From NCBI GenBank assembly GCA_016124755.1, contig WGNA01000009.1, positions 1-64,000 on the forward strand: a DNA stretch of 64,000 nt, given 5' to 3'. Below, piece after piece: positions 6,986 to 51,039 of this stretch (its first letter is position 1; each line of letters starts with the position of its first letter). The DNA comes from Bacteroidota bacterium. Lineage in GTDB: Bacteria; Bacteroidota; Bacteroidia; NS11-12g; UBA9320. The notes beneath the pieces were generated by a model, which saw nothing but the letters and a program-made list of their open reading frames with translations, did no database searches and was not told the DNA's origin. The position numbers were made by a program, and so were the translations under genes.

Positions 6986-7000
6986 ACGGAGCGTCATCCT

Positions 7001-7059
7001 ACTGACGAAAGCCTATTTGCACTAAGGATAAGTAGAAATTTACTGGAGGCTTCGTCAGC
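7001..7059. repeat. Short palindromic repeat, diverged copy
   Basis: Arms CTGACGAAAGCCT (7002-7014) and AGGCTTCGTCAG (7047-7058) form an imperfect stem of about 12 bp. The interior differs from the two exact copies that follow. Confidence 0.8.
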
Positions 7060-7062
7060 ATA

Positions 7063-7142
7063 AATTGGAGAATTACTGACGAAAGCCTATTTGAACAACG
7101 GATAAGAAGAGATTAAAGGAAGGCTTTGTCAGCATAAATTGG
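7063..7142. repeat. Short palindromic repeat, exact copy 1
   Basis: 80 bases identical to 7153-7232. Arms CTGACGAAAGCCT (7076-7088) and AGGCTTTGTCAG (7121-7132). Confidence 0.88.
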
Positions 7143-7152
7143 AGAATCCGGG

Positions 7153-7232
7153 AATTGGAGAATTACTGACGAAAGCCTATTTGAACAACGGATAAGAAGA
7201 GATTAAAGGAAGGCTTTGTCAGCATAAATTGG
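7153..7232. repeat. Short palindromic repeat, exact copy 2
   Basis: Exact 80-base copy of 7063-7142 at a 90-base period. Arms are at 7166-7178 and 7211-7222. Confidence 0.88.
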
Positions 7233-7244
7233 GGAATGTTTACC

Positions 7245-17581: not shown

Positions 17582-18721
17582 TCAGTTGAAATAAGGTTCA
17601 AACAATAGTTGCCCGTCACCCACCATCTGCCGGCCTTTCGCGAACACATCTTTAAGTTCAAGATTTGAATCGAGAAAACACAGATCGGCATCCGCGTTTA
17701 CAGCGATTCTTCCCTTCTCTTTTAGCCCCAGATTAATGGCCGGATTTAAGGTGATAATTTTAAGTGCTTCTTCTATCGGCAAAATGTTGTTTCGCACTAA
17801 TTGCCGCATTTCCACCAGATTTTCACTCACGGGAGCGCGGTAAAATCCAATCGGTTTTCCGTCTTTATCTTTTCGCTCCAGACCGGCATTCCCGTCGCTG
17901 CTGAAGGTTATCTTATCGATGCTTACACCTTGTTCTAAAGCGTGTTTAACCGCCAGATGCGGATCGGTATATTTCGATGCGCCTGTAGTGATGTCGATTA
18001 TGCCGCCCAATTTCGCAAACCGGATTGCCGCTTCGAAAAGATCTTTCGTTCGCGCAACGTGAGTGGGAGAGATGTGTTCAATCGGGAACTGATAATCTTC
18101 CACCAATTCGAATAACACATCCATTTTAGATTTGAGATTCCCGAGGTGCAAATGCAGAATGCCTTTTTTGTTTCCGATCATTCCACCGACACGAACCTGT
18201 CTCAGCAAACGTGCTAATTCCAATGCCTGTGGATATGATGAACGGATGTCGGTGATCGCGATTTTGCAACCCAAAACCTTGTCGATAAAGATCATGTCTT
18301 CCTGCACATCCTTCATTAGGTGAACCGGATCGAGACCGTAATAACCGGTATGCATATATGCCGACATACCTTCCTGTTCAAAGGATTTCACTTTAGCGTA
18401 CAAAGACTTTATGCTTCGCGTTGAGCCGTCGGTTCCGAGTAATCCAACAACCGTTGTGGTTCCGTGAATGAGCAGTTCTTCGATCCGCATTTCGGGTGTC
18501 ATGGAAGCAAATCCACCTTTCCCGCCGGCACCTGTGATGTGCACGTGCTGGTCGATAAAACCCGGCGTTGCGATTTTTCCATTCGCATCAAATACCTGAG
18601 TATCCGGGATATTCGGATCAATCTGATCTTCAATTGCCAGTATTTTTCCGGCACCGATCAGGATGTCTTTTTTGCCTAAAGGAGCCGGACTGTATATATC
18701 AGCGTTTTTAATTATTACCAT
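17582..18721 (-). CDS. iadA: Isoaspartyl dipeptidase (beta-aspartyl peptidase)
   Basis: 379 residues, close to the E. coli enzyme in length and sequence. It hydrolyses beta-aspartyl dipeptides that arise from damaged proteins or from polymers such as cyanophycin. Amidohydrolase metal ligands are in place: H59 and H61 (DQHVHITG), bridging carbamylated Lys153 (LGCKIAITD), H192 (HLHLGN), H221 (SPTHVAR) and catalytic D276 (SSDGNAG). The protein has no signal peptide and is cytoplasmic. Its start overlaps the dcuC stop by 7 bases, so import and hydrolysis are translationally linked. This gene gives the best clue to the operon's substrate. Confidence 0.93.
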   Translation of the reverse strand: MVIIKNADIYSPAPLGKKDILIGAGKILAIEDQIDPNIPDTQVFDANGKIATPGFIDQHVHITGAGGKGGFASMTPEMRIEELLIHGTTTVVGLLGTDGSTRSIKSLYAKVKSFEQEGMSAYMHTGYYGLDPVHLMKDVQEDMIFIDKVLGCKIAITDIRSSYPQALELARLLRQVRVGGMIGNKKGILHLHLGNLKSKMDVLFELVEDYQFPIEHISPTHVARTKDLFEAAIRFAKLGGIIDITTGASKYTDPHLAVKHALEQGVSIDKITFSSDGNAGLERKDKDGKPIGFYRAPVSENLVEMRQLVRNNILPIEEALKIITLNPAINLGLKEKGRIAVNADADLCFLDSNLELKDVFAKGRQMVGDGQLLFEPYFN

Positions 18722-20598
18722 TGAATGAAATGAATAAGGAGCATGAAGATTAATGCAATTCCGAGCGGTATTACATTGCGTTTTACGATTTGAAGACTGG
18801 AAACTCCGGCGATTTCGGCTACGGAGATCAGCACACCGGCAACCGGACTAACGGTTCTTCCCATGGAAGCCGCCATGTTCATCGGGAGGATGAATTTTAC
18901 CGCATCAACACCAAAGGCTTTTGCGATTTTCGGGACTAATGGTCCGAAGGCGAAGAAGGCGGCATTCCCGCTTCCCATCAGCATGGATGCGAAGAAGATA
19001 ATGCACGTCATTACAATGGCAATTCCCATGGCACCGAGCCCGAGACTCTGCGACAAATTCACCAGACCGTCGATGAAACCCAGCGCAATTAAACCCTTGG
19101 CAAAAATGTCGGCGGCAATAATGAGTGTAACCACCGACTTAAAAATGTTGCCCATTCCATTCCAGAATGAAGTGAGCGTAGAAAGTACCTTTTTAACATT
19201 TCTCGTCCGGATCAATTCGAAACCAATTCCGAAGAACAGGCTGATGAACATTGCCGTTGTGGTATCGAGCTTAACCCGAAACGGCAAAAAATCGAAGATC
19301 TCGGAAAAAACAACCAGAAGAATTAAGGGCAATACCGGAATGATCGCATATAGTTTCGGAGGATTAATTCCATTTTGTTCATCCTCACCTGTTACTGTTT
19401 CTGTTACCGTTTCCGTTACCGTTACCGTTTCTGTTTCCAATTGCGTTGCTTCGCTACGCTCAGCATGACGGGTTTCCTTTTGGGGTGATAGGGGATTCTT
19501 CGTTTCACTCAGAATCGTATCCCCGCTCTTTCGCTCTTTTGCTCTTTCGTTCTTTGAACCTGTTACCGTCTCCGATTCTGTTCCCGTTACTGTTACTGTT
19601 TCCGTTCCCAATTCCGTTGCTTCGCTACGCTCAGCATGACGGGTTTCCTTTGTGGGTAATATGGGATTCTTCGTTTCACTCAGAATCGTATCCCCGCTCT
19701 TTCGCTCTTTTTCTCTTTCGCTCTTTGAACCTGTTCCCGTCTCCGACTCTGTTTCTGTTCCAGTTACTGTTACCGTTTCCGTTCCCGTTTCCAATTGGGT
19801 TGCTTCGCTACGCTCAGCATGACGGGTTTCCTTTTGGGGTGATAGGGGATTCTTCGTTTCACTCAGAATCGTATCCCCGCTCTCTCGCTCTTTTGCTCTC
19901 TCGCTCTTTAAAACTGTTCCCGTCTCCGTCCTCCGGTCAAAATACCGGTTCACGAAATAATAACTGACAATCAAAACAATGCTGAGCGGCCAGGCAATCG
20001 GAATCTGAAAATTCAGGAAATAAACCACGGCATCCAATCCGGCCAGATGAGTTGCCGCAGCGGTCATGGCAGATGCAGGTCCCAGGCCGAATGCGGTACA
20101 GGCTGTAATTACCGATACTGCTGTTATCCGGCTCACTCCGAGTCCGGTAAGAATCGGAAAAACAGAAGCCATGAGCAACAGTCCCATTCCTGCCGCAGAG
20201 GGTATACAGATGAACAAAACCTGCCCGATGGGAATCACCGCAACAGCAGCGATATGTGGATGTTTTTTTAAAACACTTAATGGTTTTAGCGCCAGATCCA
20301 CCAATGCTTTTGAAGCTCCGATTTTATCGATGTAGGAGACGAATCCTCCAATCACCATAATCATCAAACCCACATTGGCATTGGTTCCCGAGAAGGATTC
20401 ACGAATGAGAACGAAGAGATCAAATCCTTTTAAACCGGAGGGATCGAGAAGTTGCGGCATCGGCATCTTCATCAACATCGCAATGCCGAGCATGAGCAAT
20501 CCTGCAATGAGCAGCAATGCGTGCGGGTTGTAATCCTTCAGGAGTAAATACCCCAGAATGATCACGAAGATCAGTGCGATGACGGGACCGAATATCAT
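18715..20598 (-). CDS. dcuC: DcuC-family C4-dicarboxylate transporter with ~185-residue repeat insertion
   Basis: 627 residues against about 461 for E. coli DcuC. Both halves align well: GLMIMVIGGFVSYIDKIGAS, VSRITAVSVITACTAFGLGP, and in the second half GSGNAAFFAFGPLVPKIAK and MGRTVSPVAGVLISVAEIAG. Between them, residues ~224-408 are extra. They fall in the central loop, where E. coli has a short hydrophilic linker, and consist of three copies of SGDTILSETKNP followed by ETRHAERSEAT, joined by TETVTVTGTE-type repeats. The frame stays open, so the loop is probably translated. The natural substrate may be aspartate or beta-aspartyl compounds, since iadA overlaps it. The upstream lipoprotein gene ends 3 bases before the start. 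Confidence 0.88.
   Translation of the reverse strand: MIFGPVIALIFVIILGYLLLKDYNPHALLLIAGLLMLGIAMLMKMPMPQLLDPSGLKGFDLFVLIRESFSGTNANVGLMIMVIGGFVSYIDKIGASKALVDLALKPLSVLKKHPHIAAVAVIPIGQVLFICIPSAAGMGLLLMASVFPILTGLGVSRITAVSVITACTAFGLGPASAMTAAATHLAGLDAVVYFLNFQIPIAWPLSIVLIVSYYFVNRYFDRRTETGTVLKSERAKERESGDTILSETKNPLSPQKETRHAERSEATQLETGTETVTVTGTETESETGTGSKSEREKERKSGDTILSETKNPILPTKETRHAERSEATELGTETVTVTGTESETVTGSKNERAKERKSGDTILSETKNPLSPQKETRHAERSEATQLETETVTVTETVTETVTGEDEQNGINPPKLYAIIPVLPLILLVVFSEIFDFLPFRVKLDTTTAMFISLFFGIGFELIRTRNVKKVLSTLTSFWNGMGNIFKSVVTLIIAADIFAKGLIALGFIDGLVNLSQSLGLGAMGIAIVMTCIIFFASMLMGSGNAAFFAFGPLVPKIAKAFGVDAVKFILPMNMAASMGRTVSPVAGVLISVAEIAGVSSLQIVKRNVIPLGIALIFMLLIHFIQW
19375..19929 (-). 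repeat. In-frame array of palindromic repeats inside dcuC
   Basis: Three ~115-base copies (about 19444-19558, 19614-19728 and 19797-19912), spaced 170-185 bases. Each contains GATTCT...AGAATC arms and the segment TGCTTCGCTACGCTCAGCAT, which I recognise as a repeat usually found between genes in many Bacteroidota and other bacteria. The joining DNA is a degenerate hexamer series of GGAAAC and GGTAAC on the coding strand, encoding Glu-Thr-Val-Thr. All lengths preserve the frame. Confidence 0.9.
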
Positions 20599-48768: not shown

Positions 48769-51039
48769 ATGAACAGATCAACGCACATTATCAGACCCTT
48801 ATTGATATTGATTGCACTGTTAACCGGAATGGCTTCCGGCTCTTCTCAAACTATCCCACCGGCAAACTGGACTTACACCTTGTCGAAATCCAAGGTGAAG
48901 GCGGGTGAGACGATTGAAGTAATTTTTAAAGCTTCAATTCCTCACGGTTTGCACATGTATTCGCTGGGTTACGATTGTCCGGGTGGAGGCCCTTTGCCCG
49001 CAGAATTCGAGTACACGAAAAACAAATCCTTCACATGGAATGGTGCAACAAAAGCGGTTGGGGATGCAAAATCGTACGACGATGTTTTTGAATGCGACAT
49101 CCGCGATTTTCACGACAAAGCTGAATTCCGGCAAAAGATAAAAATCAATTCAGCTAATCCGGTTATTAAAGGAGTGCTGTCGTATCAGATGTGTTCGGAA
49201 GAAACTGGCATGTGTGTTTTCCATGAATTCGACATCGAAATCAAAGGAATTGAGGTAACCGGGGGGGGAACGGGGACGGTAACGGAAACTGTAACTGAAA
49301 CTGTAACGGGAACAGGTAGTGGGAATGATAAAGCTAGTGATGATAAGCACATAAACGAATCTCAGACATCCGATACCGGAAAAACTACCGTAGTTGACAA
49401 GGAACTTTTGCAGAAACTAATCGATTGTTCGTGTGGTGATGAAGGCGTGGAAGGCGGCCAGCCCTATATTGAAAAAGGCGCTATTAATTATGCTACATAT
49501 AAACGAAATGGCGATCTCGACACAATGTCGTGCGAACTAAAAACCTTTGACGGGAAGCAGGAAGAAGAAAAATTCTCGTACTGGTGGTTTTTTATTCTCG
49601 CTTTCATTTCCGGTCTTACAGCGCTGGTAACGCCCTGCGTATTCCCGATGATTCCTATGACGGTTTCCTTTTTTATGAAGGAAGAAGACCGGGCCAAATC
49701 CATTCGATCCGGTTTATTTTACTCAATCAGCATTATTCTGATATATGTGGTAATCGGAACGTTGGTGGCATTATTGGCGGGAGCCGCAGCCGCCAACTGG
49801 CTGAGCACTCACTGGATCCCGAATGTCTTCTTCTTTTTAATCTTCGTGATTTTTGCTGCTTCCTTCTTTGGAGCTTTTGAACTAACTCTTCCGAGTTGGT
49901 TGGTGAATAAAGTCGATAAACAAGCCGACAAAGGCGGAATGTTCGGTGTGTTCTTCATGGCCTTTACGATAGTATTGGTTTCTTTCTCCTGTACCGGCCC
50001 GATCGTGGGTGGAATTTTGGTGGAAGCATCGCGCGGGGCATTTCTGAAACCCATTATCGGCATGTTCGGTTTTTCACTGGCATTCGCAATTCCATTCGGA
50101 TTGTTCGCGATTTTCCCAAGCTGGTTGAACAATCTTCCTCACAGCGGCGGCTGGCTCAATACAGTTAAGGTTGTTTTAGGATTTATCGAACTGGCACTCG
50201 GACTCAAGTTTTTAAGTGTTGCAGACCAAACCTACCATTGGGGCATTTTAGATCGGGAAGTGTACATCGCTTTGTGGATTGTGATTTTCGGGCTGATGGG
50301 TTTATATCTTTTAGGCAAACTAAAATTTTCGCACGACAGCGATATGATGTATTTGCCGGTTCCCAGATTAATTATGGCAATTCTCGTATTCTCATTTGTG
50401 GTGTATCTGATTCCCGGAATGTGGGGAGCACCTTTAAAGCAATTGGCTGGATATCTTCCTCCAACCTATACGCACGATTTTAATGTGAAGTCTGAAAACT
50501 CGGAAAACAATGGGCATGGAGGCCTAATTCCGAAGTACCGCGATGTTTTGCACTTACCAGATGGTTTGCAGGGATATTTTGATTTCGAACAGGGAATGGA
50601 GGTCGCCAGGGAACTGGGAATGCCGGTTTTAATCGACTTCACCGGTCATGGTTGTGTGAACTGCCGTGAAATGGAACAAAAGGTCTGGACCGAAAACCGC
50701 ATACACAATTTGATCAATGAAGACTATGTTCTGATCTCTCTTTATGCTGATGAGAAACATATAGATCTTCCGGAAGAAGAGTGGTACATATCGAGGTCCA
50801 GCGGAAGAAAAATAAGCAGCTTCGACAAACGCAATCTGGATATTCAGCAATGTTTCTTCAACAGCAACACACAGCCTCAATATGCGCTTTTAGATAATGA
50901 AGGTAATCTTCTTCAGCCAACCCGATCATACGATTTAAACCGGGAAGCATATTATACTTTTCTGAAAAACGGATTAACCGAATTCAACAAAAGAAAGCAG
51001 GCTAAATTGGGAGAAACGAAAAAAGCTGTTGAAGAATAA
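48769..51039 (+). CDS. dsbD: Thiol:disulfide interchange protein DsbD
   Basis: 756 residues. A signal peptide is followed by the alpha domain (~25-165; YDDVFECDIRDFHDK, SYQMCSEETGMC). A linker at ~165-270 carries TGGGTGTVTETVTETVTGT. The membrane domain (~275-560) has eight helices with redox Cys290 (LVTPCVFPMIP) and Cys408 (SFSCTGPIVGG). The C-terminal thioredoxin domain has the pair C629-x-x-C632 (GHGCVNCREME). It moves electrons from cytoplasmic thioredoxin to the periplasm. The linker also has a CSCGD segment and is longer than usual; its DNA includes a G8 run and a hexamer repeat like that in dcuC. Confidence 0.92.
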   Translation: MNRSTHIIRPLLILIALLTGMASGSSQTIPPANWTYTLSKSKVKAGETIEVIFKASIPHGLHMYSLGYDCPGGGPLPAEFEYTKNKSFTWNGATKAVGDAKSYDDVFECDIRDFHDKAEFRQKIKINSANPVIKGVLSYQMCSEETGMCVFHEFDIEIKGIEVTGGGTGTVTETVTETVTGTGSGNDKASDDKHINESQTSDTGKTTVVDKELLQKLIDCSCGDEGVEGGQPYIEKGAINYATYKRNGDLDTMSCELKTFDGKQEEEKFSYWWFFILAFISGLTALVTPCVFPMIPMTVSFFMKEEDRAKSIRSGLFYSISIILIYVVIGTLVALLAGAAAANWLSTHWIPNVFFFLIFVIFAASFFGAFELTLPSWLVNKVDKQADKGGMFGVFFMAFTIVLVSFSCTGPIVGGILVEASRGAFLKPIIGMFGFSLAFAIPFGLFAIFPSWLNNLPHSGGWLNTVKVVLGFIELALGLKFLSVADQTYHWGILDREVYIALWIVIFGLMGLYLLGKLKFSHDSDMMYLPVPRLIMAILVFSFVVYLIPGMWGAPLKQLAGYLPPTYTHDFNVKSENSENNGHGGLIPKYRDVLHLPDGLQGYFDFEQGMEVARELGMPVLIDFTGHGCVNCREMEQKVWTENRIHNLINEDYVLISLYADEKHIDLPEEEWYISRSSGRKISSFDKRNLDIQQCFFNSNTQPQYALLDNEGNLLQPTRSYDLNREAYYTFLKNGLTEFNKRKQAKLGETKKAVEE
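49261..49320 (+). repeat. G8 tract and TETV-coding hexamer repeat in dsbD
   Basis: Eight G at 49261-49268, then GTAAC and GAAAC hexamers to about 49310, in frame, encoding Thr-Val-Thr-Glu repeats. It is the same repeat type as the joining DNA inside dcuC. A change of one G in the tract would end DsbD before its membrane domain. Confidence 0.8.

Follow-up and report, generated by a model that had tools for sequence, protein, structure and literature searches.

The window, that is, the whole stretch of 64,000 nucleotides that was analysed, carries on its minus strand a dcuC-family transporter gene (18715..20598) whose 627-aa product shares 54-68% identity with 20 aligned relatives and contains a long insert. 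The Pfam family DcuC (PF03606) covers both halves of the protein in two stretches (E 7.5e-76), AlphaFold2 returned pLDDT values of mostly 75-96 for these halves, and the invariant columns of a 21-sequence alignment are retained. The insert, which has no counterpart in the 20 aligned homologues, is derived from repeats (19391..19935, minus strand; residues about 223-408) and consists of three head-to-tail composite units. These ~180-nt copies (19395-19574, 19566-19745 and 19749-19928) are 89-92% similar to one another and are spaced by 171 and 183 nt, each a multiple of 3, with one frame common to all of them (SETKNP, RHAERSEAT) and no stops. The original prediction of three palindromic copies in one frame, lying between two intact transporter halves, is thereby confirmed. 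Two sequences from the array, GCTTCGCTACGCTCAGCATGAC and GATTCTTCGTTTCACTCAGAATC, have three exact occurrences each in the window, all within dcuC, and none in shuffled sequences.

Read on the coding strand, each unit is composed of AGAGCG-type octamers, the hairpin ATTCT-GAGTGAAACGA-AGAAT, a spacer, the CGTC-tagged hairpin CGTC-ATGCT-GAGCGTAGCGA-AGCA, and GGNAAC hexamers; all of these features lie on the minus strand of the window. The tagged hairpin (hairpin 1), with arms TGCT/AGCA and a GNA triloop core, is found at 19448..19470 (copy 1, where it reads RHAERSEA), 19619..19641 (copy 2) and 19802..19824 (copy 3). The untagged hairpin 2 occupies 19494..19516, reading ILSETKN, and recurs at 19665..19687 and 19848..19870. 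Hexamer tracts are located at 19391..19438 (TETVTVTETV in the protein), 19580..19609 and 19751..19792, and octamer tracts at 19524..19555 (AAAGAGCG, read as ERAKERKS), 19695..19726 and 19879..19909. The repeat had initially been described as linked by TETV-coding hexamers; such tracts are present, but the octamer tract and the second hairpin had been overlooked. Elsewhere in the window, a tandem repeat with a period of 74-90 (TACTGACGAAAGCC...) at 7000-7237 is seemingly unrelated to the dcuC array.

Representative bacterial and archaeal genomes were scanned and yielded 55 DcuC relatives, all without the insert (55/55), as judged for most of them from their covering query residues 4-625 within about 1350 nt. 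In the same-family genome G009, the protein has 466 aa and is insert-free. Compared with the aligned homologues spanning the same residues, the window DcuC is longer by 164-173 residues, which is less than the repeat-derived stretch because the homologues have a short, variable loop at the insert position. The expected figure of ~185 extra residues thus holds for the repeat-derived portion and not for the net gain. By sequence comparison the insert is lineage-specific, in a searched genome set that included same-family genomes and no genus-mates of the source. Judged by the relatives found, the source belongs to Bacteroidota, close to Flavobacteriales.

AlphaFold2 assigned pLDDT values below 50 and no secondary structure to residues 243-409. 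The basic stretch NRYFDRR immediately precedes the insert and, by the positive-inside rule, suggests that the loop lies on the cytoplasmic side. The insert is probably a disordered, charged segment in the cytoplasm, in agreement with the original prediction, and the models are consistent with a retained fold of the two halves.

Genome-wide, the arms of the hairpins vary yet remain complementary (TTCT/AGAA, TCGT/ACGA, TGGT/ACCA, TGTT/AACA, TGCT/AGCA and TACT/AGTA). For 23 distinct tagged sequences, arm covariation was 0.538 as compared to 0.129 after shuffling, and sliding the partners against each other abolished the signal. The stem is built of 4 bp, a G-A/A-G mismatch pair and 2 bp, closed by a GNA triloop, and the inner pair of the tagged hairpin is C-G, T-A or T-G. 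The CGTC tag is present in 58 of 95 elements and NGTC in 8 more, the remainder being mostly the untagged sister hairpin. AT stands on the tag side of the element; the second stem position pairs, and the first is A-A in 55/58 tagged elements, 43 of which (43/58) end in the tail ACC. The core of the element, GCGNAGC, matches a GNA-loop DNA mini-hairpin known for its exceptional stability (PMC4686876), and we infer that it would behave in the same way here. A DNA folding model, which may leave GNA triloops and sheared G-A pairs out of its scoring, returned the expected structure, with hairpin 1 not more stable than its shuffles; covariation is the stronger evidence for the hairpin than folding energy. 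Literature searches using the hairpin sequence returned no description of the exact repeat.

A 23-base hairpin pattern, allowing up to 3 mismatches, gave 47 matches in the 4.05-Mb genome (reversed control, 0), and the whole dcuC array used as a query gave 95 local matches. The 40 stretches around these matches contained roughly 35 clusters, mainly head-to-tail arrays, nearly all of them intergenic and some overlapping predicted gene ends. The repeat is thus normally intergenic, as originally predicted. Within the stretches around repeat matches, to which the survey of in-gene repeats was confined, dcuC alone among the genes contains a complete array with hairpins. Two apparent in-gene matches to the hairpin core were set aside, one (L140, 2171-2340) lacking hexamers and the other (L152, 4856-5009) lacking both hexamers and any repeat. 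Composite arrays lie at or near the ends of contigs C2, C4, C8, C11, C12, C15, C17, C18, C19, C21, C26, C31, C32 and C38 of genome G000; as they probably break the assembly, the true number of arrays is likely to be higher.

The occurrence of stops was assessed in 15 further arrays of sufficient length: of their 4727 windows of 534 nt, not one was stop-free in either sense, and only 15/62 unit spacings were divisible by three. The open frame in dcuC therefore does not come with the repeat itself, and the array has been filtered; its openness is neither chance nor merely the result of a permissive composition.

Beyond linking the copies, as described in the original prediction, the hexamer is an independent and massively expanded component of the genome, which also lies in frame within about eleven further genes. 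A pattern of four GTTNCN hexamers had 676 matches in the source genome (control, 1), as against no more than 10 in any one of 57 relatives, so that among the 58 genomes searched the huge expansion is confined to the source genome. Tracts of at least five hexamers have their starts marked by 70 pattern matches. When about 20 places with isolated tracts were examined, 11 lay within genes, in frame; about half of the isolated tracts are thus found in genes and without hairpins. One such tract (TGTVTETVTETVTG; 49279..49314, plus strand) is located in the window itself, within a DsbD-like gene (48769-51039) devoid of hairpins, where it fills a hypervariable linker; in the orthologues, the linkers at this place are unrelated and vary in length. 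In-frame hexamers were also detected in the C-terminal tail of LspA (L257:2845-3735), in a TPR protein with repeated hexamer-octamer units (L253:2680-4158), inside a DUF5682 protein (L260:1140-3407), inside an AHSA1 domain (L256:2738-3178) and in Rho (L248:2510-4267). Further cases are an HU-CCDC81 protein, a Na/H exchanger tail, an M15 peptidase lipoprotein (directly past the lipobox), a helix-hairpin-helix protein and a small lipoprotein. Octamer-like sequence is shared by LspA and the TPR protein. In all hexamer-bearing genes, dcuC included (12/12), GGNAAC is on the sense strand, and the reading is T-(E/V/G) in every gene but Rho, where it is (G/S)-N. A protein query made of the low-complexity TETV sequence had no match in the source genome, such a query being uninformative.

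Based on these observations, we consider it probable, at roughly two chances in three, that a hexamer tract came first, that a composite unit was then copied in and expanded, and that selection acted only as a filter on frame and stops, with no protein function needed. The hexamer tract would first have replaced the short variable DcuC loop, in the same way as such tracts appear to have occupied linkers in about eleven other proteins. This tract could then have provided the homology by which a composite unit of another array was copied into dcuC, through recombination or replication template switching, with the hairpins aiding the process by stalling or misaligning single strands; unequal exchange would have raised the number of units to three. 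Products out of frame or bearing stops would have been lost, leaving units with a length divisible by three, no stops and a hydrophilic frame in a tolerant loop. The mRNA would be translated straight through, giving about 180 disordered residues with transport retained. The succession of hexamers first and hairpins later is our reading of how the sequences are distributed today. The roughly 35 tandem head-to-tail arrays indicate that local expansion, and not only insertion of an element, made the dcuC array; the original proposal of in-frame insertion into a loop is accordingly right about the frame and the site and incomplete about the process.

A considerably less likely explanation is that a mobile palindromic element of the Rickettsia (RPE) kind transposed in frame into dcuC and that the hexamers are merely its flanks. 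Rickettsia palindromic elements (Ogata et al.) are the classical in-frame palindromes (reviewed in PMC10969869), and both REPs and RPEs are known in frame within genes. Di Nocera et al. (2013) grouped RPE-4, RPE-6, dRS3 and others as CGTC-tagged REPs, which also occur in Bacteroidetes, have no dedicated transposase and are sometimes found within genes, where larger clusters encode 43-82 residues (PMC3733652). The present element shares with Neisseria dRS3 and Rickettsia RPE-4/RPE-6 a 5' CGTC tag and a palindromic stem-loop, a mainly intergenic and occasionally in-frame intragenic location, and the absence of an association with a transposase. AT follows the tag in both, but in CGTC-tagged REPs the AT fills the first two stem positions with complementary partners, of which only the second pairs here. 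The comparison with Rickettsia is therefore apt, and the common tag makes it better than the resemblance first suggested. The stems of CGTC-tagged REPs are 8-9 bp long with loops of 4-5 nt, in contrast to the shorter, interrupted stem and triloop found here; their tail is CCA instead of ACC; they are predominantly head-to-head dimers that rarely form clusters, whereas the dcuC units are head-to-tail tandem composites with hexamers and octamers, and the intragenic stretch of about 185 residues exceeds their range. Since stem, tail and head-to-tail order set it apart from the four CGTC families that have been described, we refer to a CGTC-REP-like element and not to a family member. With Rickettsia RPEs it shares a palindromic repeat that is both intergenic and, by prediction, read through into protein. 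RPEs, however, are about 150 bp long and inhabit many genes, whereas a single gene is found here with the full composite array, and other genes have no more than the hexamer and octamer components. Short, covarying and clustered hairpins are also typical of REP/BIME-RAYT systems, from which the element differs by the absence of the GTAG tag. The three Y1_Tnp loci of the genome have no repeat within 1.5 kb, as reported for CGTC-REPs generally, and mobilisation by a RAYT was rejected. The composite organisation of the units, the unflanked transposase genes and the isolated hexamer tracts in genes without hairpins all argue against a direct insertion.

It is rather improbable that the insert was selected for a role in the protein, such as that of a charged tether or regulatory loop of variable length in the cytoplasm. 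Almost all genic tracts preserve the frame, the sense strand and a hydrophilic reading as T-(E/V/G), and the insert is predicted to be disordered, all of which would suit such a role. Among the dcuC units, 8/36 codons vary; with three units and few changes, six of these are nonsynonymous and two synonymous, and they affect all codon positions with no third-position excess. Both hairpins are identical in all three units, the variable codons falling outside them. Together these two patterns point to constraint on the DNA hairpin and not on the peptide, and no peptide-level constraint is visible across the three units. The same tracts in unrelated proteins, and the DcuC relatives without the insert, speak against a function as well. 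In-frame coding microsatellites, i.e., hexamer tandem repeats, likewise have lengths divisible by three that are tolerated in disordered linkers, but the present hexamer differs from them in belonging to intergenic palindrome arrays throughout the genome.

We regard an assembly artefact or a decaying gene as improbable to a still greater degree. Many contigs of the draft assembly terminate in these repeats, which makes repeat copy number doubtful, but the dcuC copies differ from one another, arguing against a simple duplication by the assembler; in addition, the array is internal to its contig, the frame is kept and the flanking halves of the gene keep their conserved residues. Removal of the insert from the mRNA or its bypass by the ribosome, suggested by the loop location and the hairpins only, is very improbable, since the insert has an open frame and a length that is a multiple of three, which makes removal unnecessary, and had no Rfam match on either strand up to E = 1, so that a known RNA or intron was rejected.

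The dcuC array is of a known kind, with an unusual size and combination. In-frame palindromic repeats, for which Rickettsia is the best-known case, are hereby recorded in a Bacteroidota genome as well and over a longer coding stretch, and the hexamer tracts already present in protein linkers offer a visible possible entry route. More tentatively, a single composite repeat system may have spread through the intergenic space as well as the proteome of this lineage, with hexamer linkers, also in essential proteins, serving as homology landing sites for hairpin units. If this is true, genes and intergenic arrays exchange repeat units, and protein linkers change length fast between strains. As coding and noncoding copies coexist in one genome, the noncoding arrays can serve as a reference against which the filtering effect of translation is judged, something that is seldom easy to examine.

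Related hairpins occur beyond the source genome. The same-family genome G017 has tandem GATTCTTCGCTGCGCTCTGAATGACGCG arrays with a period of 108 (L264, 1501-1740), the stretch examined being free of hexamers. The generic hairpin GTCATNNTGAGCGNAGCGAANNA was found in 76/395 Bacteroidota genomes, with up to 113 matches in one of them, visibly complementary arms and 0 control matches. Given how widespread this DNA hairpin is, HAERSEA or ILSETKN peptides in predicted proteins may derive from the hairpin and not from protein homology, which should be kept in mind by annotators.
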